Assembly (NCBI GenBank): GCA_963922205.1
Contig: CAWUHX010000005.1
Location: 434,001 to 498,000, forward strand
Origin: Romanomermis culicivorax
Taxonomy: Eukaryota; Nematoda; Enoplea; Mermithida; Mermithidae
Direction of reading: 5' to 3'
Length of the DNA stretch: 64,000 nucleotides
Part shown: piece after piece, positions 6,600 through 34,083 of the stretch
Layout of the letters: each line of letters begins with the position of its first letter
How positions within the stretch are numbered: position 1 is the first letter of the stretch
Translations under genes and position numbers: made by a program
The notes under the pieces: generated by a model
The model's database searches: none
Seen by the model: only the letters and a program-made list of their open reading frames with translations
Told to the model about the DNA's origin: nothing

Positions 6600-6823
6600 C
6601 TATATGTTAAATAACAAACTTGTGCTTCCAAATGAGATTGTGAACTGCTCTCCTAGCCATAAACCATATAAGTTCAATTCGCAGATCACATTCCGAACAA
6701 TGTGGATCTCCAGATTTTCATTGTGGTCATTGCCATAGATATTCTTCCAACTGAGGCTACCAATAATGGTGTTATTCACATGAACACACTGCTCTTTGTA
6801 TGATGTGGATAATTTGGTTGAGC
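6600..6823 (-). CDS. Secreted-protein gene, last exon (module A type, stop codon)
   Basis: Acceptor TTTTTTCAG at 6825-6824; 73 residues, then TAG. It joins in phase 1 to the exon at 8201. It contains NLEIHIVRNVICELNLYG, the same strand-Cys-strand core. No anchor or KDEL-like tail is present, so the product is expected to be released. Confidence 0.6.
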
Positions 6824-9800
6824 CTGAAAAAATTCCCAACTGTTTGAAGTTAAATTAGATTGGTGAGGCTACTCTGGCACTATAAGAGGAAGACAGATTA
6901 ATTAAAGATGCAATAATTGAGACAGGGATCTGGGTGTAAAGTCCAAATTTTTACATGTTATGATACAATCGATATCCAATAAGAAATCAAGTAATCTTAC
7001 ACTAAAACCCATTTCAGTGATAAAAAATTTTGGTCACCGACAGTCATTTATTTAATAGGATTTTCACAAACCTTTTTTAATTTGGTGAGTGACACTTCTT
7101 AACTTTATCAATTCAGATGTGAAATAATTTTAGGATTTTTGTTGGCAACAATCAATGATTGTCTAGGATTATTCCCGACTCTAGGGATTCCTAGGATTTT
7201 ATCAGCAATTCTCCTGATCTCCAACCCTGATCCAGAAGTGAAAAAGCTTGAAGCTTTTTGCCATCAGTAACAATCACTAACAGTCGGCAGTGAATTGATG
7301 ATACTCACTTATTTTAACCCTAGGAATCCAAGAAGAAATCTAAGTAATAAAACATGGCAATTTTTAACTTTTCCTACAGAATATCTGTACTCATAGATAA
7401 TTCAAAACCCTAAAAGCATCCAATGTTTGTGTGTATACAATCAATATGTGTAGGAAGGAAATTTTGTTTCCCTATTTTTGGACGCAATTGGATTTTTTCC
7501 CCTATTATTGGAAAAATGAAACTCTTTGAATAAGCAAAAATCCGTCTCCAAACTGACCCAAGAACTTTATTCCTAAATAATGGCAACAGTTTATTATTTT
7601 AAGGAGTGAGCCAGCAGAATTTCTGATGTTGCTCATTTAGCCAGTTCATCCCGTAGAATTGTTAACTGTGGCCAATTGAATCCTAGGATCAAGTGGCAGT
7701 CAGGCATTCTGCTGATTGCTGATTCATTTCTTGAAAATGTCGACTGCTTCTGATTCAATCCTAGGAATCAGTGTTTGATCAATCTTGCTAAACCTAAGAA
7801 GTTTAATCATCCTTGCCCAGAAGTGATATAGGAGGAACATGCATTATACAATTCATTGTTTATACATAAAATAATTTCTAATAGCCATTTATCTCTAAGA
7901 CCTTTGAAACACATAGTTCCAAACTGCAATAAAATATTAGATATTGGAACATCCGAATCTTCTCATATCTATTGCCTCATTTGTGACAAATGGAGGAAAA
8001 AAATATTTCCCATCTTTTCAAACATAAATTTACAAATTTCAGAAGGAGAACTGCTGCATTGTTGTTCAAACTTGGTATTTTATGCTAATATAATAGATTT
8101 GAAACTGGGACCTAGAGTAGAATAATATATTCTCTGTATGATATTGTCAAATGTCTCTGTATCTACATTCATCATGCACAAAGGCAAAAGCATATTAAAC
8201 CTGCTGAGAATGGCCGAGCACACAATTCGTACATAACTGGAACAGCTGACTCTGGTATAGTCCTGTTTCTGGCATCAATTATGCTCTTTTGTAAAACTAT
8301 TACTCCACGGTAGCAACAGTCCTGAAAGCGTCTTTCCCCAAACTTGAAGCATATTCGATTTTTTGTATCACTTCCATCTCTGAAATAGAAACAGATCTCT
8401 CAGTGCATTTTTTATTGCAGCAGCTATGGTTTACCTAATGCTTTCTAGATTGCATCTCGATTCATTATATTCTGTTGGTACTTCCTCATCTAAAAATCAG
8501 CAAAAAGTTATTCTAATAAATATGGCTCGCTGGATAGTTTTACCATAACTCCAACTCATGCTATCATTGAACTCCAATGTAGTACCATTTTGTTTCACTG
8601 TAATATGTAAGTGACAGTTTTTATCCACCATGAAAGTGACATCTACTGAAGTTTTCTTATTTGATCGAGAGAATAGGAAATATATGGTTGTGTGGTGGTC
8701 AATATAGTTGCACTGTTCACAAAGTGATGGCTGGTTTTCTGTAATAAAATAAATTTGATTAATGGGAATTTGGCCAGTTGAAAAGTAGTATCATAGCAGA
8801 AACCTTGATTTTCAAAAAATAAACTACTTAAAAAGATGGAGTTAGACTCAAGCTAAACTTTTGAACCTTAGTAGAGATCATGCCTTGTTTATAGGAGGTT
8901 TATGGGCAAAAGTTCATCCAAAAAAAAAATTAACACTTGTCACACAAGTTTGCATTGAGTTTAGAATCACAATTATAATTAATCAGACAGTAATATTTTG
9001 ACGTGGCAGATACTAACAGCGAAGTTCATCTTCACATCTCAAGTTTGAAAATGACTGATGAATTTTTGATGCGTGATCAAAAATCTTTATAGTAGTTCTT
9101 TTCAAACCTGAATTTTTCATATTTACTTTTGCTGCCTGCATTTTTGAAGGGTGAGGTGAATTGATGTCTGGGTTTTGGGTAAATACTTGAAAAAAGGAAA
9201 AACCAAAAAAATCTTTTCAAGAGAATTCAATTCCGAGATTAAAAGTCTTTTTAAAGATGGCATAACGTTAGCAGCTGACCTTTTACCAACTAAAAAGTTA
9301 ACTACTAACGATCTCTCAACAAAAATCCACAAATAACACAAAATTACTTTTGTGTGAACAAGTAAAAAGAAGGTTGATTCAAATTGTAAAAGCTCCATAC
9401 ATTATGATAATCACCTTCTTTTTCACCTCTCTATGTCTTACGATAACTCAATATGGGTAGTTCAAGGACACCTTCTATTTCGTATTATTTCTCTATATTT
9501 TTGGTAGCTCCAGTTTCGTGATAAGATCTATTTAGATTACCTATTGTTAGGTATTGAAAGAAAAGAAAGTCTACGTTTGGGGAAGACTTTGCTCTTATTA
9601 TTGTTTCCTAGTCTTTTTTGATTGCATTCCAGTGAAGCTTAGTTCTATTCCATTGTAGCTCAAAGCTACTGTTTTGACATATGGATACTTGGTGTCCAGT
9701 TTTATATTTTGTATGCTATCTTATTGGTAATACTATTTTCAATAAATAAAATTACTAATCATCATTCACATTTAGTATTCCCATTCAGATGTTCTTGTTT

Positions 9801-12800
9801 CAATTGTCGACTGAATTACCAGTTAGTTGGAGTTTATTAATCATGAATCAGGTTCACTCCCTATCAGTCAGGAAGCTGGTTTTTCTTGCTAGAGACAAGG
9901 TGTGCTATTTATTCAATACAATTTTTAGGAGTTCGGGTTCAAGGGTGAAGTGTTCCGATATGTTTAAGCAACCATTGGAATGAATAATCACTTGTCAATC
10001 CATGAAAAACAGCAGGTATGTGTGAAGCGGCACCTTTTCAGAGATGTCACCTGGGTTATTCAAGATCCAACAAAATTATGTTGTAATGTATGTTTGTCAG
10101 CAGTAAATAGATCGAACAATATAAGCTTCAAAGGCCTATGTGTAATATCCAGCTCATTTGGAATAAAATTCAACTTTTTCAAGAACATTTCTCTCTATTC
10201 ACCAGTTATCTTGATTAATAGATAGCCTGGCACTTTAACCAGGAACTTTTCAGTGGCCATACACCCAGCAACATTTGTATTTCTCATCTATGCAAAAGTT
10301 ACAAGCAAACAAAGAAATCCACATACCATCATCACAAAAACTAGGAAGACCAAAAATGTGGAAAATAATTGGAAAAGAGGAGCAGAAAAAAATTACTGAT
10401 ATTAAGTTGCAGTGAGAGTAAGAAAAGAAAAAATGAGGTTGATTCTCATATTGTTCAGGCATCAGGCTCATACAACAAATCAACTCAATTTTTCACAGAA
10501 TTTGCATACTTATCCCTCTTTGTGGACTCAGTGCCTCTACATTATATGCAGAAGCCCAAGGGTTTGAACCACCTGAGCGCGCATTACTTTCCTGACATTC
10601 TGACCAGGTAGATTTCTGTATATGACAATATTATTGAAGCCAAATCGAATAAAATGATTCAAATTCTATGTTTTGATACAAACTTGGAATATTTTTGGAA
10701 AGAAAAGAATTATTGCTTTCAGCATCTCAGTGATTGCAATATTAATCAGTATTTTATTTGGCACTAATGCAAAAAGTGACCTTGACTCATTGGATGATAT
10801 TTAATTCGGAGATAGATTTTAAAACTTGGGTGAACTAAGAAGTAATCCTGACACCTGTTCCTGGAAAATCATTATAATCTATAGCATTATTGTCATCATG
10901 AATAATAGCTTAGTGTCTATTTCCTACTTTCAACACTTGAGGGAGTTGGATAAGGATAACTTGAGGGAGTTGAATACACTATGAGTATAGATATGATCCA
11001 AATCAGAGATTGTGACTACTTATATCACACTTACAAGAGCAACATGAGTACTTCCTAGAGCTTTAGCAGGCTTGAAATGCATTGAACACCATTCTGAGAA
11101 TTTTAGTATAGAAACGACCTTCACTCAACTTTAAACATTACAACAGTTTCAGTAGAATGCACATAATATTGTACTATGGTGTTCAGCTGGATGTGTTTAA
11201 TGTTTCTCTGGTGGTCTAGGCAGCATTGAAACTAGTAAAAAGGTTAAATCTGATGGAAGCATCAGAGATGGACATACTTCATCAGAGAAATTGTGTGGGT
11301 ATGTTAAAAGTTGACATAGAGAGCAACTATGGCAATTCGCATGGCATGCAGATATGAATCTTGTGTCTATGATGTATTTTGGTCATTCACGTTTTTATAT
11401 TGGGAAGGGTAGGTGAAACTGGCCTTATTATTTTATTATGGAATTATTGCCTATAATACAATGTCAAACACCAGTGTGTGCGTTATTGATCATTCTAGAG
11501 TGCAGATAAGGCACCCAAGATCGTGGACCTCAGGAGTATCAACACAGCATGAAAGTTCACAGTTGAGTAGTGGAGTAGGCATGATCCTCTCTTTGTTAAG
11601 TTAACACAACTCTAAGTTGATATTTCAACAAAACAGTGTTTGAGTCAAACAACTACATTTGAGTCACTAGAAAAACTTGTCAGAACTTTTGAATTTCCCT
11701 GAATTTTAGACATTACTGACTTTATGCAAAAGGACATATAATGTGTACTTACTTTTAATACTTGCACACAGGTCAAATGGATATGTATTGTATTTTGCCG
11801 GAGCTGTGAAGTTTCTCCATATGACATTCATTTGCATAACCAGCTCTCCTTCAAAGCATTTGTCCCCATCTTCTGTATATTCATTAAGCCATCTCAGGCA
11901 GTGGCATATGACTGGTATTTTGCCATTGTCATTGACAATGCTGCTCACATGACACTCTTGCTGAGTAAATATTTCTGGGAATACGTAATCTGCAAAAGAT
12001 GTCAAAAATCACAAACTATAACATATATTTAAATTCACTTGGCTACTTTCACATAAACTGCACGAATGGCCCAAAGAGCTTGACTCGGTGATGTGGCTTC
12101 TGTCAATGATATTCAACTGCAGCTGGCAGTCGAGATTATCAACAAATAAAAAGATATCTACAGCATGAGCTTGGTTATCACCATTGACTAACCACCTTCT
12201 GTGTAATTGGGTTTTCCTTGGTGTATTAGCATGGACACATTTTTCCACATTCGTAATAGTGGATTTAGAATTGATAACTTCACTCTTGAATTCATTTTCA
12301 TGGAAAAATTTGTGTGTTTCATCTAAAACAATCGCAGCATTCATGTTAACAGTTTTATCTTTTCAGAAGACTCACAATCAAGCGTTTGAGGGCAAACTTC
12401 GAAAGGCAATGATAAGAATATTGTTTCTTTGAATTCTTTACCAAGAGCTGAAAGCTGGAGCATGCCTTGATAACAACCATGATCATTGAAATAAAATTCT
12501 TGAAAACGACAACAAATATAACTGTGTGAAACAAATAAATCCACAAATAACACAAAATTACTGTAGTGTAAACAATTAAATTATTACTCATGGCAAGCCA
12601 CACTCTTCGCATCATGACTTGGCCCATCACCTTAAAAATTACTGTAGAGCAGATGCAAAAACTAGACATGTTGATCTCACAAATCAGACTTGATCTCCTG
12701 AACATTAGAAATTCAAAGACCATCAGGAAATCACAAGAACATTTGGCAGATGGTGTTTATAAGCATTCTATTTTAGGGTATATCAAGGTTCCCTGCATCT

Positions 12801-15800
12801 TTATACAAAATATCATCAAATATCAATAATAAATTACTAAATTCATGAAAAGTCACATCTAAATTTTGTGTGATCTCAAACCATAACTTATCATCAATGA
12901 ACCATGTTCTTCCATGTGACCTACATGATGAGCAGAACACTTGTGTTTGATTTATAGAATCTTCTGATATTTGAAATATTCACTAAATCTAATTAAGGTG
13001 AAAAAATCCTTCAGAGATCCACATTCAACTGTTACCTGGTCCCAGTTCCTGTTGAACTAACATGGAGTATGTCTGTTGGTGTCGAACTTCTATTGCCAGT
13101 CGGCAATTCGTTTTGAGTGTCAAATTGAGAAAATAACGATTCTGCTCGAATAGTGGTGTTACATACTTGAAATTTCCTGGTACACTTCTGTTGCATATGA
13201 AAGTGTTGGCACTGGATTCTTCATCATTATCTAAATTACATTTCATCTAATTCAGTTTAATTCATTTCCATTTGTCACTACCCTAATAATTAGCAGTTTT
13301 TGAAGTGGTATTTATGACACACTTCGGAATGTTTTGATTTTGTGTCTCAGGAAGATAAAATAAGTTTCTGATGGCAAGTTTGATTATCATAAACACATTG
13401 CAATTTTGTAGAATAGCCCCGAATTACAATTAGGGAATTTGGATGCATCTTGACTGGTAACCCTATTCCTTATCAATCTTTTATTCTCTCGCAAATTCAC
13501 TGGCACATTTGCCATGTTTATTGTAGTTTCAAGAATGAAACTGCAAATCATCTGTCTAGCTAACAGAAGAGTAGCATTTGATAGGAGGACTTGAACCCCA
13601 GACTTTCTGCTCACAAGGTAGTTATGATACCAACTCTGCTAACCAAGATGGTTGATAAACCTGCTAACCAAGATGCTGCTGATTAATTTTATGAGCCTGG
13701 TGCTTATACACAACACGAGAATCAAACTGCTTTACCAATTCCTTAGTCATGCAGTAACTTGATGTGTGTAGCAGGTTTTTTTGCATACAGCAATCAAATT
13801 TTTTGTTGCACAGTGCACCTTGATGTCTGGCTGCTTTTTTGATTAGGTTATACGGTTTTCTGTCCGAAGGTGCAATTTAGAAAATGCCATTGTAGTTAGT
13901 GCTTATAGGTTCTGATTATCAACAAATTACAGATGAATGTTTGATCCTGCAAGTTGTTTTTTCACGATTTGAATGAAAACTAACAATTTCCTCGGTCATT
14001 TTCCCAAAATCTTTTTGAGATCTTCACAAAAATTTTGACTTCCATGTGATTAAAAAATTTTGAGTGTAAGACAATTCTTGCCAGTTGGAAGATCCAAAGT
14101 TTTTGAGTTTTGTTTGTCTGACTGAAAATTCACTAAATTCACCGAGCAATCAAACCTTCTGTCTGGGAAATAAAAGGTGGAAAGATCCATTCTCAAGTGT
14201 TCCAGGATATCAGAATTCAGTAAAAAATTTCGGTGCTACATGCAGAACAAATTCCTCTAGTCTGGTTATAATAATCTTTTCATTTTGTCTCCAAAACTCA
14301 GAAAATCGGATTTTAAATACCTAGAACTGACATGAATCGAATGAAATCCAAGAAAACTAGTTTGCAATCCGATAAATTTAAGCAAATTTATGAGCAACCA
14401 AAAATGTATCTGTGCAACCAAAATTTTTCCCCAAGTTGCACATTGCAACCTGGCCTGTGCAAAACAAACCCTGGTGTGTAGTTCCTGGACCCTTTTCACT
14501 TCCTGTTAATTTTCACATTTTTAGTCTTTCTAGTTTTCATGATGAGGTTATGCAGATTTCTCCACCAGTTTCAAGTTCTGAGATGAGAAAGTTTGGGTTA
14601 GGAGAAGTTAAGTGTATTGGCCAAACATTGCATGTGGCTAATTACCACATCATCCAGTGAATATTTTTTGCTGCATTATTTGCATACTATTACTGGTCTT
14701 CTCATCAAAAATATGAATATTCCAGTTACGTATTGTGTTTCTGTTGAAATTTCCGATTACAGTAATCTTCCAATCATGGATCAAAGTTTGGAGTGTCTCG
14801 TTTCTGCTGGCATTAATGGTGGCTTGAAGCTATTTACAATTTGTTTCGACGTCATCACTACTGTTATTTAATTCATGCTCTGTCAGTCAGAGAGTGCCAA
14901 TTCTCTGCAACTACTAAGGGCACCTAATCACATTTTACACTATAGAAATTTTGGGTCATTTGTTAAAATCCCATACTGATATGTTGAAAGTGAAACTTAA
15001 CATCATCAACTGTAGACTTATTTCACCAGTAAATTTTGCACACTATGAAAATAATAAGTGAAATATTTCTCATAGGCTATTGATTGCACTATTTTGTCTG
15101 AGCTCAGTGTCCAGTTTTTTGAAGCACACCCCAGAAAAAAGTCACACTTCCGCACTCTGTAAAACCATGGAAAAACATGAAATTTCTTCCTAAAGTGTGC
15201 ACCGAAAAATGGGCCCAGGTTTTGGACATATTATGTGTGATTCACTAGTGAGCTAGATTAATTTTGAATTTTCCAAGGGAGAGTTTTACTGTAGGATGAT
15301 CAAGGACAAATTCTTGCATCAGTCTACTGGCCAGGTGGATGCACAGCTGAAATGGCAAGATTTTGCAAAACATCTCTTTGCAGCTGCTGTTCAGCATTTT
15401 TTATTTTTCTTAGTCATCCTTGTTAATGTTTGATTTAACTTGAGCTGAATTGACTACTAGTAAAATTTTTTGGTTAGCACGTTTAACTGGTCTTACAATT
15501 TGGCAAGTCAACACAGTGACTTTTATTATTTTGCGAGCAGTGGACAGTATTTTCAAAATTTGGAAATTGGAAACATGGTAAGGACTTTTGTTGCACATGA
15601 TATGTTGTTCTGCCTCAGGGGAGGGGGGTTTTGTAGTTGTCTCTCAGATTATGATGGAAGAATTATTCATCTCTTCATTTTTGTAAGGTTGTCATATAAC
15701 TGCTGAATTTTTTCCTATATGAGCCCAAAGGCCAAAAAAAGTGCCAAACAAAAGAAAGTCTACTCGAAGTGTCTTCCTGCTGACAACTATTACTACATGG

Positions 15801-18800
15801 CACTACTGAAGGGCTCCTTTTCTTCTTACTTTGTAACAGTATACATTAGAGATGTATGGGGACCTGGACCCAAAATGAGACCCACGATCACCTGATCATT
15901 TTGTTGGACCGGGACCTGATATTTTTAAAATTTTGAACCTGATACATCTCTAATATACATCTCTCTGTGTAACATGTTCTATACTTTATAAAGTGATCTC
16001 CCTTTTTGAACTATAATTGGTCAAGGTTTCCTTTAATTTGTGACTTTGGAGAACTAGATTGGATCCCTGACAAGTAGATTATTACAATGGAACATACTTT
16101 GTTGCTGCAACGTCTGTTGATAAAATGAACCATATAATGATGGAAAACATCTACTATCATCAGTCAATTGCCAATCCTTTATAGGACTTGTGAATAAACC
16201 TGCATGACCCTTAACATAAACTGTGTCTTCCACTGTTTTGGCTAGCCGATGAACAATGCTTTTGAGAACATATTGAGCACTATTCAAAAAACCAACTCGA
16301 TGTGGATTTTGGGTGAAGGATCCAATTTCGAAGTATCGAGTCAAATCATTGCTGCGTATTCGGTGAACATCAAAAGGTGCACCACACCATTGTTCAGCAA
16401 CCTATAATAAAGCAAAAGTAGAAAATTCGAATAACTTCCATCTGGTCAATGGAAAGTGTGTATTAGAGTATCAGCATTGAACTAAACCCTATATGAGGAA
16501 TGAATGGTTTTGGGCAACTTAAATTTCTACTTTCTGTGAATTGTGACAAAAATTTGATTATTTAAAAAATTATTTTTAAAGTTAAAGACTAGGGCAGATT
16601 AAGTACGAAAAATGAGCTGTCTAAAATGGCTTACAATGGTATTTTGGGCCATCTTCATAAAAAGGGCTAAAATCTAAACACATGCAAAAGCCTATTGACT
16701 GACCTAAATTCTGTATTCATAAAAGTTTTTCCACTGTCTATATACATCAGCACACATTAGAGAAAGACCGGTAGATCTAGCACTCTCTGAAAAAAAATAT
16801 GTCAATAGCCAAAACTGTGTCAAAAATGATATTTCAAATGTAAAAGAAGATGTTTCTAGAAAGTTTTTGACTAGCTATATCTATCAATTTTGCTGCAAAC
16901 CAGAAGTACCGAAAGGGAGGTTATCAAGTGTAATATTTGAAAATTACTAAGGGATTAGGGATCCGTCTCAGTCAAGATTAGTTCAGTCAGTGGGTTGGGA
17001 AAAAATCCAGGTATGCTAAGGGTAGATATCAAGGCACCTTAAATCAAAACAGTATCTGGTCAGGATGTTGGCTTCAAGGAGGAAGATGAGAATCTGGAAA
17101 TGATTATCTAATTTTCAATCATAAATTGATAATCAAAATTATTAAACCTTCAGTTTTTAAGCCAGTACATACTCACATGGGCTTGTACAGGGCATCGCAA
17201 AAGATACCCCATTTCAAGTATATGTTTCAAAGCCCGCCCCTTATAAAGTGTTGGGCTATGCCAGGGTGTAGGAAGTATGGTTGACTGTGTAATTTGATCC
17301 GAATTCATTTAACATGCACAGTAATACTGGGTCTGTGGTACGTATGCCATAGCTTTAACCTATGAGATATAGGGGTTGTAGAAAGTACACTTATAGCTTC
17401 AACATCCAAAATTTCACATAACTGTAGACACTACCCACTTTCCTTTAAAGTGTTATTTAACATCAAGTAGAGAGTAGGGACAGATGACCCAACTTGGCCT
17501 GGATGTTAAAAATTGATGATGTTATGTTGTCTCAGGGTTTTATAATTTTGAGGCCTTCACTCATTTTTTACTGCTTTCTACATCATTATGTGACTTTACA
17601 CATTGAAGCTTCTAGTTTACTTCCTGCAGGGATGTGCATTCATGCAATAAAGTGCTAAGCATATTTTCTAACCTGGCACCCAGTTTTGCACATTGGAACT
17701 CCTGGCTTACTTTGCACACCCACAGTATCACTATACATGTTAAAGCCATGGTGTACTTTCTATACACCCTGTATTGCCCTACATATTGAAACTCCAGCCT
17801 ACTTTTAACACCCCTTGGGGTCTGTGACAGTTGGGTGAATGACAGTGGGCTGACTACTACAATTAAGTGAAAGCCATTAAGAAACAGTAGGAATAAGGCA
17901 AATTTGTTAGAAAATGTTTGTACACAAGAGGGGTACATTTTCCATAGACATACACATGAATAGTATAGAGCTGAGAGAAAAGTTTGGGGGACACTCTGTG
18001 CTAGAAATTTTGTTCTTCGTTGCCACTGGATCATTTGTTTTTATAAGAAAGTGATTGGGGGCATGTACTGCTGCCTCCATTACTATGCTTGTCATCATAG
18101 TATTTACAATTTTTCGGGTAGTTTCCTACAAAGTGTAAAACTATTCATAAATTTGTTTTTTGACATATTTTAAATTTTTTACAGGTTCAGCTGAGAAGTT
18201 GTTAAATGATTGAGAGCACAGAGAGTCTTTTCCTCTACCCCCTACATACCAGAGTATCAGTAGCCTGTGTTCACACGATCTCTACAGCTTTCAAAACATG
18301 AACATGAGTTGCATCTGGAGCTTTAGTGTGCTCTGACCACATGGTAACATGGCTTCCAGCATGACAATCAACTGATGGAATAGTGCGGCCTTGCAAAATG
18401 TTTTTTCTTGCATTGCCAGTATACCATAGTATTATGATTTTTTCACAGATGTAAGCTAGAATAGCTTCCTCACTAATCCATGAATTCAGTCATTAGGCAG
18501 TTGTACAAAAACATTCAACTATGAATTCCAGGATCTGTATACCCATACCTATACTGATTTATATTCTTTGTCGCTTTGTGTACTTATTTTCTATATTTAT
18601 TATTGCCTTGTATCTCTATCAGACCTACTGTTATTGTGTCCATCTACATGATACTGTTTTCTGTCCAGCGGCATGCTGCTGTTTTTTATTATTGTCACCC
18701 AATTGCCATATTCACCCCATTGTCATAGTAACCTGATTGTTTTTCGCTCAACTGTGATTCACCCAATTGTGTCATTCACCCAATCCCCACCCCTTTTATG

Positions 18801-21800
18801 CCCATACATGATACAAGTTTGGATCAGACTACACACTCAATCATACTTTCTATACCTCCTGTACTGCCCCACAGATTATAAGCTGCAGGCTAGCCTATGC
18901 TTATAACAAGAGTATCCCTTGTGTACCTCCTGATTAACCCTCATAACGACTTTAGTATCATCCAAGGTTTTGGGAAGTAGAAGGTTTTCTAATTCTACCA
19001 AATAAAAGCCCTCACCTACCTTGGACAAAGTGGACCCAACAGTGCATTGGACAAAAAACAAGTTCAAAATACAAGTAAAACACACTAGTGTGCTGACATT
19101 GGCAGAAATGCACAACCTGTCAACTCATCAATTGAGCAAATTACCTTGTTTTGAATCACATTTCTTCACATCATGAACAAATTTTTTTGTATTTAATGTT
19201 TCAGTAGTCAATGAAAGTTATCAAAAACAAATCTGCTTCCTTCCAAAAAAACTGTAGTCAAATAGTTATTGTTCCTGACAATAGTCCAAAAGTGTTCTAG
19301 TTCTATTCAGATCTTGTTGTACAATGTGACAAATTCCAGAAGATTGTTAAAAGCTGGCATAACATATTAATCAGCTTACAAGTATCCCTCCTTCTTTCAA
19401 GCAACCTAAGAAAATTGCCGAATGCCCACCATCATAGAAGCGATGAAAATTCTCATTTGGATTGGGCATTTTGACCCAATGGAATGTTGCTATTGGAAAA
19501 ATTCCATCCACACTGATGTTTTTCTCACAGCGTGTTTTGATGTCTTCTCCGATTGCGATCCAGTTATCTGGTAGAACTATGACAAAAATCGCCATTAGAT
19601 AATAAGTAAACTATGCAGACAATGCTTCAAATGAACATAAGCTTTGTAGTCAAACATCAGCAGGAAACCGGAGATAATTTGAATGGGTGTAGGTTTTTTG
19701 GAAAGTTAATATTCAGAGTAGGGATTATCAGAATATTTTGCTTGGACATTGAGAGCTTCTAACTTGATTTAACTTTAACTAAATACAAAAAATTAGGTAC
19801 GTATATCCGCAATCCTTTGGATAATTTGTTGCATTGCACAATGATAACACCGCATGCTCTGATTGTGAACCTACCTTTGAAATGAGGAGTCATTCCACAA
19901 TATGTCCCCAACAATAAATCTAAAATTATCCCGTACATAGTATTGAAGAACAAAAAAGTCACATGCAGAAGTTCGGCACCTATTTCATTATAAGTTGAGT
20001 GTAAAAAATTGAACATAGTAAATTTAAAAATAAAATAACACATATTTACATTTCTTGCTTTTTACAGAAAAACAGAATATATAGTCTGTTTTTCCAAGTG
20101 CTGTGTTTTTCAGAAGGAGTTGAAAGCAAGTTCTGCATACATTGGATGCCCTTCCTGAATTACTGTAAATGGAAAATTTGTTAAGAAGGTGGCAATTTGG
20201 CAAAAGAAAACTTCCTAAGAATATTAGCTGTTGCTGTTGGAGCTCAAAGAGATGCAACATAATATCGATCAAACACTGGATAGTTGACAGTTTTCGTGAT
20301 CCGTTCAGTGTCAGGGTGAATTTGAATACAAGAAACTTCAAATATATATGTTTAATTTCGGTTTATTTTTAAAGTTAACAAACTGCACAAATTAAGCAAT
20401 TTTTGCCCACAATGCTGTTCAATTATTCTATAGAAAGTCATAGTCGATTGTGTTGCAATTGCATACCAAGAGAAACATAACAGAATTTAAATGGTGAACT
20501 TGAAATCTAAACTCTATATTTCTTAATTTTAACAATAAAATTAAACAGAAAGGTTTACCTGTATTGAATTTAGAAATTTTTTGTAGCTCCTTGAGCACTT
20601 CACTTCTGATTATTGGCTAGTAAATTCTCAATCTTGACATATTTTCGATTCTCAATAATTTGATGATTTTCTTGAAAATTATCACATTCATCAGAGCTTG
20701 AAATAATAGCTATTTACATGAATAAATCAGTCTATCACTTACTCTGCTTAAAACTATTAAACACTTCACCTGAACAAACAAATAGCATCTGTTTTGTGCC
20801 ACCACCTAAAGCTGGAAATAGAATTTTGCACTTAGTGTTGATACATAAATAATTATCCTTGTGAAATACTTGCTTTCAACTTTTATCAGAAAAATAGCAT
20901 TTGAGAAAGCAACAGACTGTGCATTTTAATTTTTGATAAGGGTAGTCAAATAGATGATTTTATTGCAGATCATTTCTTCTTTGAAACCAAGTACTTCAAC
21001 GTACCACTGTTCATTATCATGTTTACCTAATATGATTAGCACATTTCTCTTTGTTGAACATACAAAACATTCATGGAAGAATTTCCATTAGAATTTCTCC
21101 TTTTCGTGGAAGCATATGCAAGTAAGTCAGGGCTTGTAGCTGTAGCACTCATGTACGTTACAATTTTATGCTGGAGACATTTTGTAGGGGACATTTAGGG
21201 ATACCAAATTAGGGCATTCCGCAACTTGACTGCGTACAATTTCGTTGTCCAATTTGAAAAAATTTGGGCTGTTGACATAGTAGATCATGTTACAACGCAC
21301 TGTCTGTTCTGATTTCTGCAATCTGAATGAAGAAAAAGATATAATTTACATTAGTAGCTTATTAGCAGTGTTTGAATTGCTAAGAATGACACAAACTTTG
21401 AAGAAGTAGTCACTGCTTTGTAGTGTTATTTTATCAGGAATTCAAATATGAGAGCAGTAGTCCAGGGGTCGTTTTCATTAGGGAGACTTAAGCTCCAGCT
21501 GAGCTGCAACTTAAGTTCTACCCCACTTTATATGATTTACCATTGTGAGATGCAGCTTCAGTGCAACTTAACTCATGCTCACAAAACATATTGAGACAGT
21601 TCAACCGCAGCTGAGGAGTAGCTTAACACTACACTGTATGTTACTACATTGCCATCAAGGAACAGCCCAGCTGTAGCCTAACTATTCTGATATGTTTTGT
21701 GCATATGATTTTAACTACAGCTGAGCTGCTCCTGAATGGTAATGATATAACATAAAGAATAGAGCTACAGCTTAGCTGGAGCTTAAGTCCCTTTGATGAA

Positions 21801-24671
21801 ACCAGACCCAGTGTTGAGGCAACCTTTTCCCGCTACTCGGGGCTTCAGTAAAAGTTAGGCTCGGTCTGGGACTTGAACCCAGGACCTTGCAGCTACCGTC
21901 CGCACGCTCTAACCAACTGAGCCAACTGAGCAGCGGGAAAAGCACTCTCTTTTTGCAACAATTCGTAGTTGAGGTGGCTGCTTTGGCCACTCTCAACATC
22001 CCTCAGCCGTCGAGTTTGACGGACCGTCAAGGGCCACCAGTGTTGAGGCAACCTGTTCCCGCTACTCCGGGCTTCAGTAAAAGTTAAGCTCAGTCTGGGA
22101 CTTGAACTCAAGACCTTGCCACTACCGTCCCCATGCTCTAACCAACTGAGCCAACCGAGCAGCGGGAAAGGTGCCCTCATTTTGCAACAATCCATAGTTG
22201 ATGTGGCTGCTGTGGCCACTCTCAACATCCCTCTGCCGTCGAGACATCGAGGTGCTGTCACTTTGATGCCAGGTATTTTTTGGTATAAAGAACAAAATAG
22301 TGATGTAACAATTACATCCCAGATTTTTACGAGCTGTGTGAATATTTTTCATTGAAGTATTTGCATTCCTTATGGTCTGAAACGTTAAGAAACTATGTTT
22401 TGTCTACTGAATCTCCTTCTTTTTCGTTATTTATTTGCACATATTTTCCAATTTTCTGGCTTTTAGCACGTATTTGACCATTTTCACTTTTTTGTGCATT
22501 TTTAAATGGTTTTTCTCCTCATTTTAACGTATTTTTTATAAAGTTTGTATATTTCAGATCAATAGCTAATAGTTTATTCATGATTAGTGCATCCGAATTA
22601 GTGCACCAAATTTCGACATACTTTGTATGGGCGATTGGTTTCAGTTGATGCTGGATGACCTTTTTCAGAGTACAAAAGGACTTTAACTGGCCATAATCAC
22701 AACTCTACGTTTCAAAATATTGGAAGGATTAATATTATTGGCTACAATAGTTTCCTGTATGACCAACATTTTTTGTGGGTTGTATTCTTACATTGTAAAA
22801 ATTTTTAATTGAGGATGTTGTGCATATCTCATCATTTCTGTGCATTTATTCTTGCTTTTATTTGGCAGGAATTCTGTGTATAAAGATCTGGTCTAAGAGA
22901 ATATTAGAAAGGATGATGTTACTAGACTTATTAGTAGAGCACCGATTTTTAAGTGATGCTGCACTTAATCTTTTGTTTTGATGGAATATACTTCCCATGC
23001 TTAGAAATGCAATTATGCATGGTGTCTGATGGTAAAGAATGCTAATTAACAGCACTTAATTGCACTTCATTTGGGGGTCTTGCACTTAATTGCACTTAAT
23101 TTAAACTTTTTGTAAAAGTTGCACCTAAATGCATAGTCTTTAATGAAAAACTTGAAAATACATGGTTAAAAAAAGTTAAAAAGTTAAAAACTTTTTAACT
23201 AGTTTAACTTTTTTAGACTCAAAAACCTTTTTTTAAGTTAAAAACTTTTTAACTATTTTTAACTTTTTAAAAGTTAAAAACTTTTTTAGTTAAAAACTTG
23301 AAGAAACATAGTTAAAAACTTGAAGGAACATAGTTAAAAACTTGAAAAATAAGGTTTAATGAAAGATCAACAGTGGAAAATTTTCAGTGATGCGGTGATT
23401 TTCAGTGATCAATCCGGAATTTAAATTTAAAATGTTGTTCACGACGTAGACCTAGAGCGTTTGTTTTCTCAATGTAATTTAATATTGTCTGATCGCCGTC
23501 AAAGCTTAACATTTGAAAATATTGAAATGATAGATATTGTTATGTTTAATAAGTTTCTTTTCAACTAAACTTGACAGTTTGCTGCCATTGAAACGTCTTA
23601 TTGCAATTTATTAAGGCCAAAAATTAGTGTAAAATTGGTTTTTTTGCACTTAACTGTGCACTTAATTTGCCATTTTTTTGCACTTAATTAGACACTTAAT
23701 TTTGACTTTTTTTGCACTTAAGAATCCGTGCTCTACTTATTAGTTAGTTATTATTATTATAGTACTATACTAGTTATACTAGTTATTGAATTATCATAGG
23801 CAGCAGGATAGTGTCAACCTATACTATTTATTGAATACTCAAAACTCCTGGCAGCATGCAGCTAATTTTCTGTCCACAAAAGAATCTTTCTAAAACATCA
23901 GAAATAGAGAAGAATTAATTTTTACAACACTTTTCCTGAAAACTTATCATAAAACCCAATAGTTGTCGATTCATGTAGTTGGTTTATCATTTAGTAGGAA
24001 ACTTTTTGTGCAAGTTCCTCTCCATGAGTGCCACATTTCACCTTGTTTAAAATTGATTTATGCCAAAATACAGGTGAGGGGATCCAAGCTTGAGGTAAAC
24101 AACTAAGGCTTAGTGTATACTGTGCAGTTTCAAACAAAATTGGGAAGCAGGACCCGAAGTAAATCAAGGACATGATATTAAAAAAAAACTTGTTCTGGAT
24201 CAAAAACTGTTACCATGCAACATTTACAATCTTGGCTTCTCACAGGCAGCAACCTGAAACAACTGGAAGTGCATGAGATGAGCAGAGTATCCAAGATTGG
24301 TATGAGGGCTCCACTAGGTGGCAAAAACGCAATTATACTATACCTCACTTTTCAGAAATGAGATCAGACTTATCAAATTGTGGGATTGCTTATGATAGCC
24401 AAAATTCGACACTGTAAAATCAAATCATAATATGCAAACAATGTTACACTGACCAGTAACTGTGGTTTAGCTATATCATCCCTCATGATATGTCTTAATC
24501 AGAAAACATAAAGTTTTGAACAATCCAAAGTACCCAATTAGGAACTACAAAGGTCACTTACTCATGAATCCTGAAATGATAATAATTCGGGTCATTCGGA
24601 TCTGGCCTAAATATTGCGCTGGTTATGCTTACGATTAAAATCAATATCAATAAGTGGAAAATTTTCAACAT
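6600..24671 (-). CDS. Multi-exon gene for an unrecognised secreted protein with alternating cysteine modules
   Basis: This gene was rebuilt from splice signals. The first exon encodes a signal peptide (MLKIFHLLILILIVSITSA) and the last ends in TAG at 6600-6602. Exons from 20154 downward join in compatible phase across nine introns. Two module types repeat. Module B has Cys-x15-Cys, then C(F/Y)xG(E/V)(L/I)V(M/L)Q, and ends in (W/D/E)LC-like; it occurs in exons at 11753, in 8435+8201, and more loosely in 19380+16098. Module A has a strand ending in (N/D)CxLxI and occurs in exons at 13036, 12047, 8544 and 6600. Two A-type exons are both exactly 195 nt. The protein is probably extracellular and disulphide-bonded; no enzyme motif or membrane anchor was seen. 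About 800 residues are accounted for. Exons between 24562 and 20616 are incompletely joined. Two neighbouring genes instead of one cannot be excluded. Function unknown. Confidence 0.6.
8201..8379 (-). CDS. Secreted-protein gene, internal exon (module B end)
   Basis: Acceptor TTCTATTTCAG; 179 nt end at GTTTAA. It contains DGSDTKNRICFKFGERRF, CCYRGVIVLQKSI, NRT (a possible glycosylation site) and YELCARPF. If the donor is skipped the frame stops within a few codons. Confidence 0.65.
8435..8489 (-). CDS. Secreted-protein gene, short internal exon (module B start)
   Basis: 55 nt encoding EEVPTEYNESRCNLESI between a TTTTTAG acceptor and a GTAAAC donor. Both split codons are restored when joined to its neighbours (Asp before, Arg after). 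Confidence 0.65.
8544..8738 (-). CDS. Secreted-protein gene, internal exon (module A, 195 nt)
   Basis: Acceptor TTTATTACAG, donor GTAAAA, phase 1 to phase 1. It starts NQPSLCEQCNYID and contains VDVTFMVDKNCHLHITVKQ. It pairs with the next two exons, which form module B. Confidence 0.7.
11753..11989 (-). CDS. Secreted-protein gene, internal exon (complete module B)
   Basis: Acceptor CTTTTGCAG, donor GTAAGT, 237 nt, phase 1 to phase 1. It contains ECHVSSIVNDNGKIPVIC (16 residues from Cys to Cys), then CFEGELVMQMNV, NFTAP and FDLC. The first spacing is identical to the module B at 8489-8201. Asn-Phe-Thr is a possible N-glycosylation site. Confidence 0.7.
12047..12322 (-). CDS. Secreted-protein gene, internal exon (module A type)
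   Basis: Acceptor TTGTTTTAG, donor GTAGCC, 276 nt, phase 1 to phase 1. It contains VDIFLFVDNLDCQLQLNII, the same strand-Cys-strand core as the other A exons, and ends CSLCE. The next intron is only 57 bp. Confidence 0.6.
13036..13230 (-). CDS. Secreted-protein gene, internal exon (module A, 195 nt)
   Basis: Acceptor TGTAATTTAG, donor GTAACA, phase 1 to phase 1. It contains FICNRSVPGNFKYV and FLNLTLKTNCRLAIEVR. It is the same length as the exon at 8544-8738 and shares the NCxLxIxV core. Confidence 0.65.
13570..13690 (-). repeat. tRNA-derived (SINE-like) relic
   Basis: On the minus strand, TTGGTTAGCAGAGTTGGT-like (A-box side) is followed about 45 bases later by GGGGTTCAAGTCC (B-box side). The T stem pairs poorly and the TTGGTTAGCA part is duplicated, so this is an old SINE piece rather than a tRNA gene. 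It lies in an intron of the secreted-protein gene. Confidence 0.35.
15847..15952. mobile_element. Short hAT-type MITE (TAGAGATGTAT ends)
   Basis: The 106-bp element has inverted ends TAGAGATGTAT / ATACATCTCTA. It is flanked by GTATACAT (15839-15846) and ATATACAT (15953-15960), a 7-of-8 target duplication of hAT length. It carries no coding capacity. Confidence 0.7.
16098..16401 (-). CDS. Secreted-protein gene, large internal exon
   Basis: Acceptor TTTATTATAG joins phase 0 from the previous exon. 101 open codons end at a GTATGT donor. It begins VAEQWCGAPF, matching the VMYELCARPF end of the module B at 8201, then carries a longer region (YFEIGSFTQNPHRVGFLNS and GHAGLFTSPIKDW) not seen in the other modules. 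If the donor is not used, the frame runs on to a TAG near 16053, which would make this a terminal exon. Confidence 0.65.
17195..18910. repeat. Foldback-like repeat element, copy 2
   Basis: It starts with AAAGATACCCC, continues with GTGTAGGAAGTA and TTGATCCGAATTCATTTAACATG-type motifs seen in copy 1 (5225-6590), and has inverted ACTTTCTATACACC motifs near 17757 and 18843. TTGATGATGTTATGT at about 17512 matches TTGATGATGTGT of copy 1. The right edge is uncertain. Confidence 0.35.
19380..19576 (-). CDS. Secreted-protein gene, internal exon (module B, first half)
   Basis: Acceptor GTCATAG, donor GTAAGC, 197 nt, in phase with both neighbours. It starts LPDNWIAIGEDIKTRC and includes FHRFYDGGHSAIFLGC. 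The RC...DG segment and the FxxxxxGxxxIFLG segment align loosely with the exons at 8435 and 8201. Confidence 0.65.
19875..19979 (-). CDS. Secreted-protein gene, internal exon
   Basis: Acceptor GAAATAG, donor GTAGGT, 105 nt, phase 1 in and out. It encodes a hydrophobic strand-rich stretch (LLHVTFLFFNTMYGIILDLL) followed by a Cys and PHFK. The hydrophobic run could be mistaken for a membrane helix; its position after the shared Cys fits a module A strand. Confidence 0.5.
20050..20154 (-). CDS. Secreted-protein gene, internal exon (module A start)
   Basis: Acceptor AATTCAG, donor GTAAAT, 105 nt. It encodes RASNVCRTCFQLLLKN and continues to YIFCFSVKSKK. The CxxC...Y-FxFS...KK layout matches the start of the exon at 8544-8738. 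It ends with T and joins to GT of the next exon as Cys. Confidence 0.5.
20559..20616 (-). CDS. Secreted-protein gene, probable internal exon
   Basis: The frame encodes SEVLKELQKISKFNT and ends in G before GTAAAC, which joins in phase to the next exon as Gly. The start is uncertain: TTTACTAG gives phase 0 at 20616, and AATCAG gives a shorter exon starting at 20605. Confidence 0.4.
20743..20811 (-). CDS. Secreted-protein gene, probable internal exon
   Basis: Acceptor CTATTTCCAG and a strong GTAAGT donor flank 69 nt encoding LGGGTKQMLFVCSGEVFNSF and two more residues. It reads phase 1 to phase 1. The join to the next exon is unsettled. Confidence 0.45.
21205..21315 (-). CDS. Secreted-protein gene, probable internal exon
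   Basis: Acceptor GATTGCAG precedes 37 open codons with VRCNMIYYVNSPNFFKLD and a second Cys near the end, then GTATCC. The composition resembles the other exons. Its phase does not join directly to the exon at 20743-20811, so a boundary is wrong or a small exon is missing. Confidence 0.4.
21465..21810. mobile_element. MITE with about 30-bp terminal inverted repeats
   Basis: The left end reads GACTTAAGCTCCAGCTGAGC. The right end, reversed, reads GACTTAAGCTCCAGCTAAGC, and similarity extends outward through GTTTTCATTA / GTTTCATCAA. The interior is full of AGCTGAGCTG and CAACTTAA blocks in both directions. No target duplication could be fixed because the right end abuts the SINE pair. Confidence 0.6.
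21811..22260 (-). repeat. Tandem pair of a tRNA-derived SINE
   Basis: Two units 229 bases apart share most of their sequence. On the minus strand each has a D-arm-like GGCTCAGTTGGTTAGAGC and, about 25-30 bases later, a B box (GGTTCAAGTCCC in the first). The first unit can still form a 5-bp anticodon stem around a 7-base loop reading GGT in the anticodon position. A unit-specific part (CCACTCTCAACATCC in plus orientation) follows. Tails and target duplications are not clear. Confidence 0.7.
22935..23735. mobile_element. Non-autonomous hAT element (TAGAGCAC ends) with exact 8-bp duplication
   Basis: The ends TAGAGCACCGATTTTTAAGTG and, reversed, TAGAGCACGGATTCTTAAGTG form inverted repeats. Flanks CTTATTAG (22927-22934) and CTTATTAG (23736-23743) are identical, as expected of hAT insertion. 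Subterminal GCACTTAATT units are clustered near both ends, and the middle is a self-complementary AAAAGTTAAAAACTTTT region (about 23165-23300). No transposase frame. It lies in the first intron of the secreted-protein gene. Confidence 0.8.
24562..24671 (-). CDS. Secreted-protein gene, first coding exon (signal peptide)
   Basis: ATG at 24671 opens 36 codons and ends in GA before a GTAAGT donor (24561-24556). The product starts MLKIFHLLI, has a strongly hydrophobic core and a small-residue SITSA end typical of signal peptidase cleavage, then IFRPDPNDPNYYHFRIH. It ends in phase 2. The exon that follows it in phase was not found with confidence. Confidence 0.65.
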
Positions 24672-28460: not shown

Positions 28461-28936
28461 AAATTCCAACAGGGTGTGAATTACCAAGATTTTGTGATGT
28501 TTAGCGTAATTCCAATTGAAATGAGCATAGATCTCAAGATGCAACTATTTCTAAAGCTTTTCTATCAATCATATAACACTTTTAATATTTAGTTGAATAA
28601 ACATTTGCAGCAATTAGGGCTGCTAATCGATCTGGCATTGAGGAAACTAACTTTTTCAATAATTCAGCACTTATTCCGTTCAAAACTTTCATCAACTTTT
28701 CTTTCATGTCACATTCATTTATGGCATGGAAGTTGTTGCAAATGAGAAATCCTCCCAAAATCCTCCACAAACTTACGATTGGATTCATATCTGGCGATTG
28801 AGGAGGCCATTCCAAGATGGACATTCCTTCATCAGTGATGAATTTTTTTGTCAGCTTGGCAGAATATAAATCCAGTTCGAAGTGGCACACAACAATATAG
28901 CTGCATCTACTGAAGCCTCCCAATGATTTCTTAAGC

Positions 28937-30072
28937 TGTAGGCATACTTGACTGGTTTTTTTGCGGCCCGCAACTGCGGGTCGGTTGCGGCTCTCACAAT
29001 GGCATACTTTTGTGCAGTTCTGCAAAGTGCGGAACCGGAAAACCGCAATTGTTAGCATAGTTAACCGCAATTTCGAACTGGAAATTACCTAAGAGATGCA
29101 AGGTTGTTCATTTAAGTTAAAACACGGAGAATGAAACATTCACTGTACATATTGAAAATGTATAATTATTCGATTTTTTAATTTGCTAAATGAATTTTAA
29201 TTTTTTAATCGTGCGTGCTTATGAAAAAAACTGTGGACAGAGCAAATTCTGGAAAAAATTGAGTTTTCTAGTTGATAAAGATCAGGTATTCATTGTTATT
29301 CAGTGCAAAACGGCATATACTGTATCAAGTGCCGCTACTGTTGTCGTGTGTTTCCACCGATTTTGTCTTTTTTGTCAATCCGCGCATGAGGCCCGCAAGT
29401 ACCAAGTGGAGTGAGCGATGGGGACCATCAACAGCCGTCTTACTGTAGCGCAAGTCAGTACCCGTGCGCTGGCTCTCTCAATGTGCATTATCTTGTGTTT
29501 TTTATAACATACGTTTTCTATTAATCTTGTGTCCTACTCGCTGCCTCGCCGCACCCTCGTCTTTGTTTGTTTTCTCCCCACTGCTTGGGAGTGAATTGTT
29601 TATACTCTCGCCCAACCGCGTTTGTAAGTAAGTGTTTCTTATTGCGTAAGGTAAAATTGAAGAAGGGTTTTCTTTCTTGTATTTATCTTATTTCGGGAGA
29701 CAATTAGGGAAGTATCTTTTCCTTGATTGGTAGGATTATTAGTGTCGGGTTTAAGTACTATCAATTAAGTTAATCCGGTAAGCGTGGGTGTGGGAAATAT
29801 GTACATTAAGGACTAACCCTGGGATCCCAATCCTGCCTAACTAATCAACCCCTGACTCATTTATAAATACAACATTACCAGAACAGCAAAAAGTACTCCA
29901 TTCCAGAACTCTTTGGGGGTCCATAAACCGTTCTAAACTGCAATGCGGTTGCGGGTTGCCACCCGCAAAATTTTTTTCCGGTTGCGGGTGACTTGCGGGC
30001 TGCAATTTTTGAAAACCACAAAAAAGTGTGTGGGCTGCACACTTTTCCGCCCATTGCGGAAGTATGCCTACG
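28937..30072. mobile_element. hAT-like element inserted in the Tc1 transposase
   Basis: Inverted ends TGTAGGCATACTT / AAGTATGCCTACG bound 1136 bp that split the Tc1 frame. Flanks TCTTAAGC and ACTTTAGT match at 5 of 8 positions, a worn 8-bp duplication. Subterminal GCGGCCCGCAA, TGCGGGT and TTGCGGG motifs in both orientations are typical of hAT elements. It holds a further LTR-like insertion; no transposase frame was found. Confidence 0.65.
29444..29874 (-). mobile_element. Probable solo LTR inside the hAT-like element
   Basis: Flanked by TTAC at 29440-29443 and 29875-29878. On the minus strand it starts TGTTGTATTTATAA and ends GCGCTACA, resembling the LTR at 27540 (TGTTGTATTTTAAT...CTACAACA). 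Composition is GC-richer than its host. The 4-bp duplication alone is weak evidence; the shared end sequence supports it. Confidence 0.5.
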
Positions 30073-31683: not shown

Positions 31684-32737
31684 TGACCCTTTAATCAAAA
31701 CTTCTACCAAACGAGCTCTACGAGCTCATGACCATAATTGGGGCATCACGTGCACCTCTTATCAGTAAAACTAGCGACGTTTTGCAATGCAGAACGACTA
31801 GTTTGGAAGTTCTCACTAAATGTTGTTCATATGTTTAGCATGGGGATGTAACTCATCCCCAATGCTAAATGTATTCAAACTGGAAAATGTCTATGTGACC
31901 ATAGGCATCTTCTGCACCCATTTCCACTCCAGAAGTTAGCTTGGGCTTCGTAAGCCCCGCCGAGGCCATACTGTAGGATTACGAGATCCTTAGAAGGGCC
32001 TGTTTTGTTAGTTTTTCACTCATTCTCTGGATTCTTGCTCACGTCTGACTTTGTATTTCACTCCGCATGCGCCTCCTTCTTATTGGATAATAAATTCGAA
32101 TATTCACATTTCCTCTGCATCTATCACCAAATTTGCATATTCCTCCTACTCACTGCGTCCGCTGCTCCAACTCATATAGAGAACACCCATCATCTCTTCG
32201 CACCAGGTCTCCGATTGAATACTAGAGCCTCGGCCCAACCTCCCAAGTTAACCGTTCGCCCAACCTAGTGGACCTTTCCCTGTTCACTGATCGCTCTGAA
32301 GCCACCAGGGACCCGTCCCCCTTTCGTCGAATGGCAGTTTGAGAAGCAGGACTAGGTAGGTAAGTCTTCTCAGGGGATTATTATTGTTGGGGGTGTATTT
32401 TGGGGAACCCTTTCTTAAGTCGGTTTTCCGTTGAGTTTCCCCTCAGTTAGAAGGGCCCTCATTCCCCTTGGGTTAGGGCTAAAAAGGGGATTTGTGGTTT
32501 ACAATCAGGTCCCCTATATCAGGTCATTCCTCGAATGACCTTGTCCATCTTTCATACTGAATGGAACCAGGGATTGCCACCCCTGACCTGGCGGCATTGT
32601 CCATTACTCTACAGCAGAACCCAAGGACAGCACGGGGGTACTCTATAGGCCCTCCTATAGTCACTACTAGCCAGGTCAGGCTCCCGAACTGAAAACCCCT
32701 AGCAAGCCACCCAAACGGGGTCACAGCGTGTCACTCA
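31684..32737. mobile_element. Putative solo LTR, about 1.05 kb
   Basis: TG...CA termini (TGACCC...TCACTCA) are flanked by CAGTG at 31679-31683 and 32738-32742. The interior is GC-richer, with promoter-leader-like pyrimidine tracts, and differs sharply from both flanks. An alternative boundary with inverted TGTGACC/GGTCACA ends has no target duplication. No coding region. Confidence 0.45.
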
Positions 32738-32799
32738 CAGTGATATGGCCATATTTTTCTATCAATATGCCATGGATTTTCTCCATCAATGTGATTGGC

Positions 32800-33400
32800 C
32801 ACATGTGACATGGCTCCAGTTTTCAGACAATGTGACAGATACTTGAACTTGACCATCTTTATTTCATCATTGATTTTTACTGTAGCTTTGCGCTGTGTAA
32901 TTTTCGAAACTTCTACTATAAATAGGAGAAAATAATTTTACTTCAGCTCACAATAAATCTGTAATCTGACTATCTGCCAAGATTTATGAACTTGACTATC
33001 ATCTTTCGATATTTGACTTTTACTGTAGCTTTACACTTTACATAATTCTGTAAAATTCTCCTATAAATGGGGCGTAAAAACTTCACTCTAACTCACATCC
33101 GACTTATATCTGGTTATCTGACTGCCTCATGATCATAAAGTTCAATATTTGAACTTGATCATCTTTGTTGATTTTTACTGTAGCTTCACACTGCGAATAG
33201 TTTTTTTGAAATTCTACAACAAATAAGTGCGAATGTTTTTACTTTTGTTCACAATAACTCCATGATCTGACTGTCTCTCATGATCATGGGGTTTGATTTT
33301 TTGACCTTATCATTTTAATTATATCACTGAGTTTTACTGTAGCATTACACTTTGTATAACTTGCGCAAATTCTCCAATAAATGTAAACCAATGATATCAC
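32800..33400 (+). repeat. Family R1 tandem array, four units of about 130-165 bp
   Basis: TTTTACTGTAGC recurs at about 32876, 33009, 33173 and 33331, each followed by CACT(G/T)TG or similar, a TTCT(A/C)CTATAAAT(A/G)-like segment, then ACTCACA and CATGATCATAAAG blocks. This is the best-preserved array of the family. Confidence 0.7.
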
Positions 33401-33469
33401 TTCACAACAAAACTTCGACCCCAAAAACAAAAAATTATAATCTATCGATTTGAAAGTGAAACATAAAAA

Positions 33470-34083
33470 TCACGGGTTCAAATTGGCACTCGGTCCTTGG
33501 GACAAATGTTTAATAATATCGACCCAATTCCAACCCCTGGCCTTTTCGCCCGTTCCTTCGCCCCTATCCCACATGCGCCTTTTTTGAGCTTTGGACATAG
33601 CACCACCGCCGCCCGCATTTTTAACGTGTTGTTGATTGCTCGCCTCATTTGCATATTTATCATTCAAATCCGGTTTACAATCTTGTTCGACATGCAAATT
33701 TTCTTGCTCTTTAAATAACGTAGTGGATAAATTTGCCAAATTTTCTTTCAATAATTCTATTAAACTAAAAATCATAGGGCAACCGAGTAAATTTTCAAAA
33801 TTTGATTCTAAAAATTTGGTAATTTGATTTTTCGATTCTTCGTTTAAATTTTTATTGTAAAATAAATTTAAATTCAATTTCGGGCCGCATTTCGATGGAT
33901 AATCGGGCGAAAAAATCGTATCGAATTCGATTAAAATCGATTTTCTATGATCGATACCATTATCCGTTTCGCCGAATAAATATTGAATTTTGGGTGGTCC
34001 TGAATCGTCATCGCGATCGATAAATTTGATTGATTCGTCGCCGTCGAATATTGATCGTAAAACTTCGATTTCTTCTAGTTGTT
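33470..34083 (-). CDS. RWDD4: RWDD4 terminal exon
   Basis: Acceptor TTTTTTTTTTGCATAG at 34085-34084; the frame is open for 203 codons to the stop at 33470-33472 and carries the RWD domain and the RGWNWVD motif. Confidence 0.9.

Follow-up and report, generated by a model that had tools for sequence, protein, structure and literature searches.

What protein does the intron-rich gene on the minus strand of this stretch of the Romanomermis culicivorax genome encode, and what might that protein do? The window, by which we mean the whole stretch of 64,000 nucleotides analysed, carries 16 exons between 24671 and 4027 that join into a putative secreted protein of 854 amino acids with 39 cysteines. 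Splice sites were chosen by hand alongside those of the paralogues, which are labelled here by their contigs in the same 359-Mb nematode genome (C2, C4, C5 and so on). That genome gave 50 matches to the cuticle-collagen family Col_cuticle_N, as suits a nematode, and none to Chitin_bind_4, a family typical of arthropods that was equally without matches in the control genomes. All 15 acceptors are AG, 14 of the 15 donors are GT and no stop codon falls inside the 16 exons. The phase-compatible exons noted in a preliminary description of this DNA are borne out by the joined gene model. The gene nevertheless extends beyond the outline given there, with extra exons and a different 3' end: E1b (21322-21205), E1c (19874-19805), s1 (12630-12588), B1 (12521-12376), s4 (4330-4285) and B4 (4216-4027), six exons in all, were missing from it.

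Exon E1 (24671-24562) supplies the start codon and the hydrophobic, signal-peptide-like N-terminus that had been proposed for this position, and the three most hydrophobic 19-residue segments of the protein begin at residues 2-4. A similar exon is found in the paralogue C4b, 110 nt long in both genes; the C4b N-terminus is less hydrophobic than that of the window copy and makes a weaker signal peptide. The first intron holds a 229-bp tandem pair (21808-22243) that includes a tRNA-Thr-like sequence on the minus strand (21858-21931) and looks like a tRNA-derived SINE. At the other end of the gene, an exon reaching a stop near 6600 had been taken as terminal. We rejected this stop as the gene end because a donor precedes it and the exons s4 and B4 follow downstream. 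Exon A4 (6823-6620), 204 nt long as in C4a, C4b and C2, is accordingly internal, and the gene closes with B4, which ends in TGA at 4027 and shares 58-60% identity with three paralogues. Downstream of the gene, at about 1555-1449, a short block is similar in three frames to offsets 63507-63613 of the fetched C4 stretch (C4b). Similarity in three frames suggests that the block is perhaps conserved as DNA, as a 3' element or a repeat. Elsewhere in the window, open frames judged by eye resemble an RWD-domain protein (33473-34141, minus strand), a neurobeachin-like protein (57574-59939, plus strand) and a Tc1/mariner transposase (28585-29088, minus strand).

The one donor without GT belongs to E1c. 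At position 19804 it reads ATACGT, compared with GTACGT in the tandem copy on C5, GTACAT in C222, GTATGT in C103 and GTGAGA in C94. Because of this missing GT the window copy may be an impaired member of such a gene, a possibility that we take seriously without favouring it and that fits every reading of the family. Against impairment stand the GT at all its other donors and the stop-free exons, and the deviating base may reflect an error of assembly, allelic variation or a rare AT-AG intron. Apart from this donor the window copy shows no broken-looking feature. What is concluded about the family in any case draws equally on the paralogues and the window copy.

The N-terminal region begins with E1b, which shares 60% identity with C4a and C4b across 40 amino acids. 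E1c follows with the segment SEHAVLSLC, corresponding to the helix that bears the nucleophile Cys in a bacterial family described below, E2 (19576-19380) encodes the core with PIATF and GGHSAIFLGC, and E3 (16401-16098) encodes the domain end (VAEQWC ... R.I ... YFEIGS) and a linker. Together, E1c, E2 and E3 encode W..G, PIATF, GGHSAIFLGC, VA(D/E)QWC and R.I. A Pfam scan of the N-terminal region gave no match. Using NCBIfam, five of seven nematode members matched the BPSL0067 family NF033857, the best with an E-value of 3.9e-4 and 20.7 bits, which like every single-sequence score lies below the curated cut-off of 27 bits. A second scan with this model matched four of eight members and found no match in the other four. 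Searching PDB sequences with the seven-member nematode profile returned Tae2 (6WIN) as the sole match (E 0.096), and a single-sequence search returned 6WIN again (E 0.86); the wider eight-member profile, which includes more distant copies, matched nothing there. The Tae2 stretch of 6WIN is itself a member of NF033857 (E 3.4e-35). Scanning with the NF033857 model itself gave no match in this genome or in the control genomes. PHROGs gave no match for seven members. A stray match of one protein to an aminoglycoside phosphotransferase model (E 0.094, 12.5 bits against 530) was treated as noise.

Stronger evidence came from comparing profile with profile. The family profile was built from five annotated proteins of environmental plasmids, one unannotated Caballeronia frame and the Tae2 stretch; a Rhizobium frame containing a stop was excluded. 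With hhalign, the seven-member nematode profile aligned to these seven family sequences with a probability of 95.6% (E 1.2e-8), and the wider nematode profile did so with 96.0% (E 3.9e-9), covering the first helix too. Sixty column shuffles reached at most 1.4%, with a minimum E of 0.036, while the reversed profile gave 1.0% and an alignment of the cysteine-rich modules 0.1%. At the level of sequence profiles, this alignment shows the N-terminal domain to be homologous to the BPSL0067/Tae2 branch of the NlpC/P60-like peptidoglycan amidases. The same alignment excludes the reading of 19576-16098 as a third, looser copy of a B module, which the preliminary description had put forward; the segment is the second part of the BPSL0067/Tae2-like domain together with the linker. 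Since even the Tae2 stretch was assigned to no Pfam family, annotation based on Pfam would miss such genes.

The catalytic residues of the family are only partly retained. All seven family sequences carry the nucleophile Cys, in the context G(E/Q/G)CV or HQCV. In the nematode domain the site reads EHAV in all five members of the wider alignment that cover it (the window copy, C4b, C103, C94 and C170) and in five further copies (C4a, C222, C268, the C5 tandem copy and another copy on C103). The Cys at the nucleophile position is thus absent from all ten nematode copies in which this segment was read, a count that leaves aside C581 and C2:2467k. The aligners place V opposite the family Cys and a register shift of two residues would place H there; neither is a Cys. 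By contrast, the His motif H(A/T/S/V)AI(Y/F) is kept in all eight members of the wider alignment, and most members that extend that far show (D/E)QW or a close variant of it. We read the absence of the Cys together with the kept His motif as an apparent loss of the usual Cys-His chemistry, predicted from these residues, with the fold retained.

A domain of this kind might still be enzymatic, using another nucleophile or another chemistry, and kill bacteria as tick Dae2 does. A candidate nucleophile would be the conserved Cys four residues past the V of EHAV; the invariance of EHAV..LC in the five covering members suits a selected function, and the kept His and (D/E)QW motifs speak for this reading too. 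Set against it is the lack, in every nematode copy read, of the Cys that all seven bacterial family sequences carry, and we consider continued catalysis unlikely. The loss of activity with retention of ligand binding remains our preferred reading.

The gene belongs to a family. Using tblastn, nine first-guess exon peptides were found in conserved order across several paralogous loci when compared with the fetched sequences. The best-resolved paralogue, C4b, has 15 exons, since E1b and E1c are fused, and 14 of 14 introns are GT-AG. Its product is again 854 amino acids long and is identical to the window protein at 388 of 847 aligned residues, with 36 of 40 Cys columns in common. Eleven of the 14 one-to-one exons are equal in length, although the acceptor of C4b exon B3 was picked from two AGs to give equal length. 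An automated search gave exon lengths equal to those of the window gene for 12 of 13 exons in C4a and 11 of 12 in C2; the search required AG and GT, so the splice sites of these two genes are not independent evidence. On contig C2 some 19 kb separate the match to E1c from E2 downstream of it (1084397, 1103343), an intron far longer than in the window copy.

Querying the genome with single exons and with the domain gave a sense of family size. Exon B2 (about 11990-11754 as queried) has 13 full-length, stop-free matches at 48-100% identity, and exon E3 (about 16401-16099) has 16, of which 10 are strong at 39-100% identity; the B2 count includes the window. The domain query found at least 15 exons of E2 type, all with E up to 0.13, of which 10 belong to the main family and five are distant (C94, C268, C170, C581 and C2:2467k). 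Copies are clustered on C5, C103 and C4. Across A2 and B2 no difference separates the C85, C4a and C4m copies, which may have arisen by recent duplication or represent haplotypes. Contig C4 also holds a partial copy (offsets 32724-41567 of the fetched stretch) that consists of modules; its A1 seems to carry a frameshift, and neither E2 nor E3 was matched between this copy and the preceding gene.

Coding constraint was measured on E2, E3, A2 and B2, whose aligned copies contain no stops. Relative to the window copy, dN/dS stayed below 1, between 0.05 and 0.62, in every one of 24 unsaturated comparisons, several of which are rough as their dS exceeds 1; seven further comparisons, with more distant copies, were saturated at synonymous sites. 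Exon E2 is the most conserved, with 0.05-0.16 compared with 0.11-0.62 in the other tested exons. Over modules 1 and 2, the window copy and the C5 tandem copy align without gaps in the exons at 0.83-0.86 identity, compared with 0.66 in the long intron and 0.72-0.81 in three short introns. As judged from these substitution rates, the four tested exons are shown to be under purifying selection. This bears on a further reading, in which the protein is a secreted parasitism factor aimed at a host or prey animal and the bacterial-type domain has been reused for an unrelated target. A multigene family with clustered copies is what such a factor might look like. The low dN/dS gives no gene-level sign of positive selection and no link to a host was seen, so that we find this reading slightly harder to credit even than that of an active enzyme.

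The remainder of the protein consists of four tandem modules, D1-D4, of 127-170 amino acids, each composed of an A, a small and a B exon. Phase-1 introns delimit the modules everywhere but at the end of the gene. Module 1 comprises A1 (13230-13036), s1 and B1; s1 is 43 nt long, as in C4a, C4b and C2, and has the weakest similarity of all exons, while B1 is 57-60% identical to three paralogues. Module 2 comprises A2 (12322-12047) and B2 (11989-11753), where the small part and B form a single 1-1 exon. Module 3 consists of A3 (8738-8544), s3 (8489-8435) and B3 (8379-8201), and module 4 of A4, s4 and B4; s3, B3 and s4 were placed by paralogue comparison in the joined gene model. All nine Cys of A2 and B2, four in the former and five in the latter, are invariant in the 13 copies (11 distinct sequences), none of which contains a stop. 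In the C103 and C222 copies, A2, the short intron and B2 form one open frame of 265 and 202 amino acids, respectively, so an intron-retaining transcript would remain readable.

Several features had been recognized before. A1 and A3 are indeed both exactly 195 nt long and flanked on either side by phase-1 introns, and the B exons do bear C(F/Y)xG, NxT and (D/E)LC. The spacing between the first two Cys of B, given as 16 residues, is 15 in both copies. What had been called a single B module at 8489-8201 corresponds to s3 and B3, two exons split by an intron at 8434-8380, although the joined product may have been meant. The A and B units had also been described as separate, alternating modules, which we rejected because the phases 1-1, 1-2 and 2-1 run together and the parts share a cysteine frame; A, the small exon and B are one module.

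That the protein is probably secreted and that its cysteine modules were duplicated in tandem both found support. Using profiles built from four genes, D1 and D3 aligned with 93.5% probability (E 2.3e-7; best of 60 shuffles 0.015) and D2 and D3 with 64.3% (E 6.4e-5; best shuffle 0.0012), so at profile level modules 1 and 3, and 2 and 3, are shown to be homologous. Neither D1 with D2 (E 0.042) nor the three pairs involving D4 (E 0.05-0.48) reached significance by profile comparison, and D4 is assigned on its cysteine frame, exon phases and position. An alignment of nine module sequences has six invariant columns, five of them Cys. As first suspected, the modules match no described family among those searched: a Pfam scan of nine module sequences gave none (best E 0.056, a BTB model), as did single exons, and a search of PDB sequences gave no match (best E 1.8). 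An AlphaFold2 model of module 2, whose input read through the 57-nt intron and had two extra rows, reached a pLDDT of 41.8, too low to use; its second half is dominated by strands. In the distant C94 copy, and judging by coordinates also in C268, the amidase-like domain passes at its end into an A-like segment within one frame of 201 amino acids, indicating that the two domain types are joined beyond the window subfamily too.

Repeated disulphide-rich modules, and the 39 cysteines of the window protein, would also suit a structural role in extracellular matrix, cuticle or eggshell, with the amidase-like domain as nothing more than a scaffold. Conservation is highest in E2, the amidase-like core, as a mere scaffold would not need, and we regard a structural role as improbable. 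An origin of the exons from a degenerate transposon protein, an outcome already contemplated in the preliminary description, can be practically dismissed: several genome copies exist, but the Pfam search found no transposon family beyond one weak MuDR-like match in one member (E 0.13), two exons are stop-free in 13 copies with dN/dS below 1 and several copies clustered, and exon lengths and intron phases are conserved.

The evidence seems to us evenly balanced for and against the full form of the preferred reading, namely that the gene encodes a secreted member of a multigene family in which a signal peptide is followed by a nucleophile-less BPSL0067/Tae2 domain that binds cell-wall peptide and by four disulphide-rich modules. 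A conserved amidase-like domain without its nucleophile suggests ligand binding, for which the non-catalytic PGRPs provide a precedent. Amidase activity would have been lost and binding of cell-wall peptide, or of a similar ligand, retained; bacterial wall fragments might then be recognized or sequestered, and the four modules could serve as a stalk or spacer for the domain or offer extra binding surfaces. More tentatively, and with doubts that outweigh our confidence, we propose an old nematode family in which the inactive Tae2/BPSL0067 amidase is the recognition head of a four-module receptor or scavenger for bacterial wall fragments, PGRP-like in role, arisen independently from an interbacterial weapon and carried on an undescribed extracellular domain. 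Whatever its function, the extracellular module is new in that it is absent from Pfam.

Compared with known systems, the nematode domain shares with the BPSL0067 family NF033857, which includes bacterial Tae2 (6WIN), the motif order W..G, I.TF, H.AI(F/Y), V.(D/E)QW and R.I. It differs from the family in lacking the nucleophile Cys, in its insertions, in the four added modules and in being encoded by an intron-rich animal gene. Tick Dae2 is already known as a bacterial amidase domesticated by animals that still acts as an antibacterial enzyme. Dae2 is an animal member of the Tae2-like family (PMC10318531) and is antibacterial in ticks (PMC11347951). A BPSL0067/Tae2-like protein of nematodes is not described in the accessible literature searched, which included these two papers, PMC5986905 and PMC13342648. 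We set the nematode protein beside Dae2 by description only. Like that of tick Dae2, the nematode domain probably came from bacteria by horizontal transfer. Dae2 kills bacteria, whereas the nematode domain is without the nucleophile and sits within an 854-residue protein, and the missing residue argues against peptidoglycan hydrolysis and bacterial killing of the Dae2 kind. PGRPs belong to a different fold family from BPSL0067/Tae2, and nematodes are not known to have them. Here the likeness is that an amidase fold devoid of activity serves recognition, as PMC8124813 describes for non-catalytic PGRPs, which makes this an analogy of logic and not of membership. If the preferred reading of ligand binding is true, the nematode family would represent a bacterial weapon converted to binding, its nucleophile lost, purifying selection kept and the domain fused to new modules.
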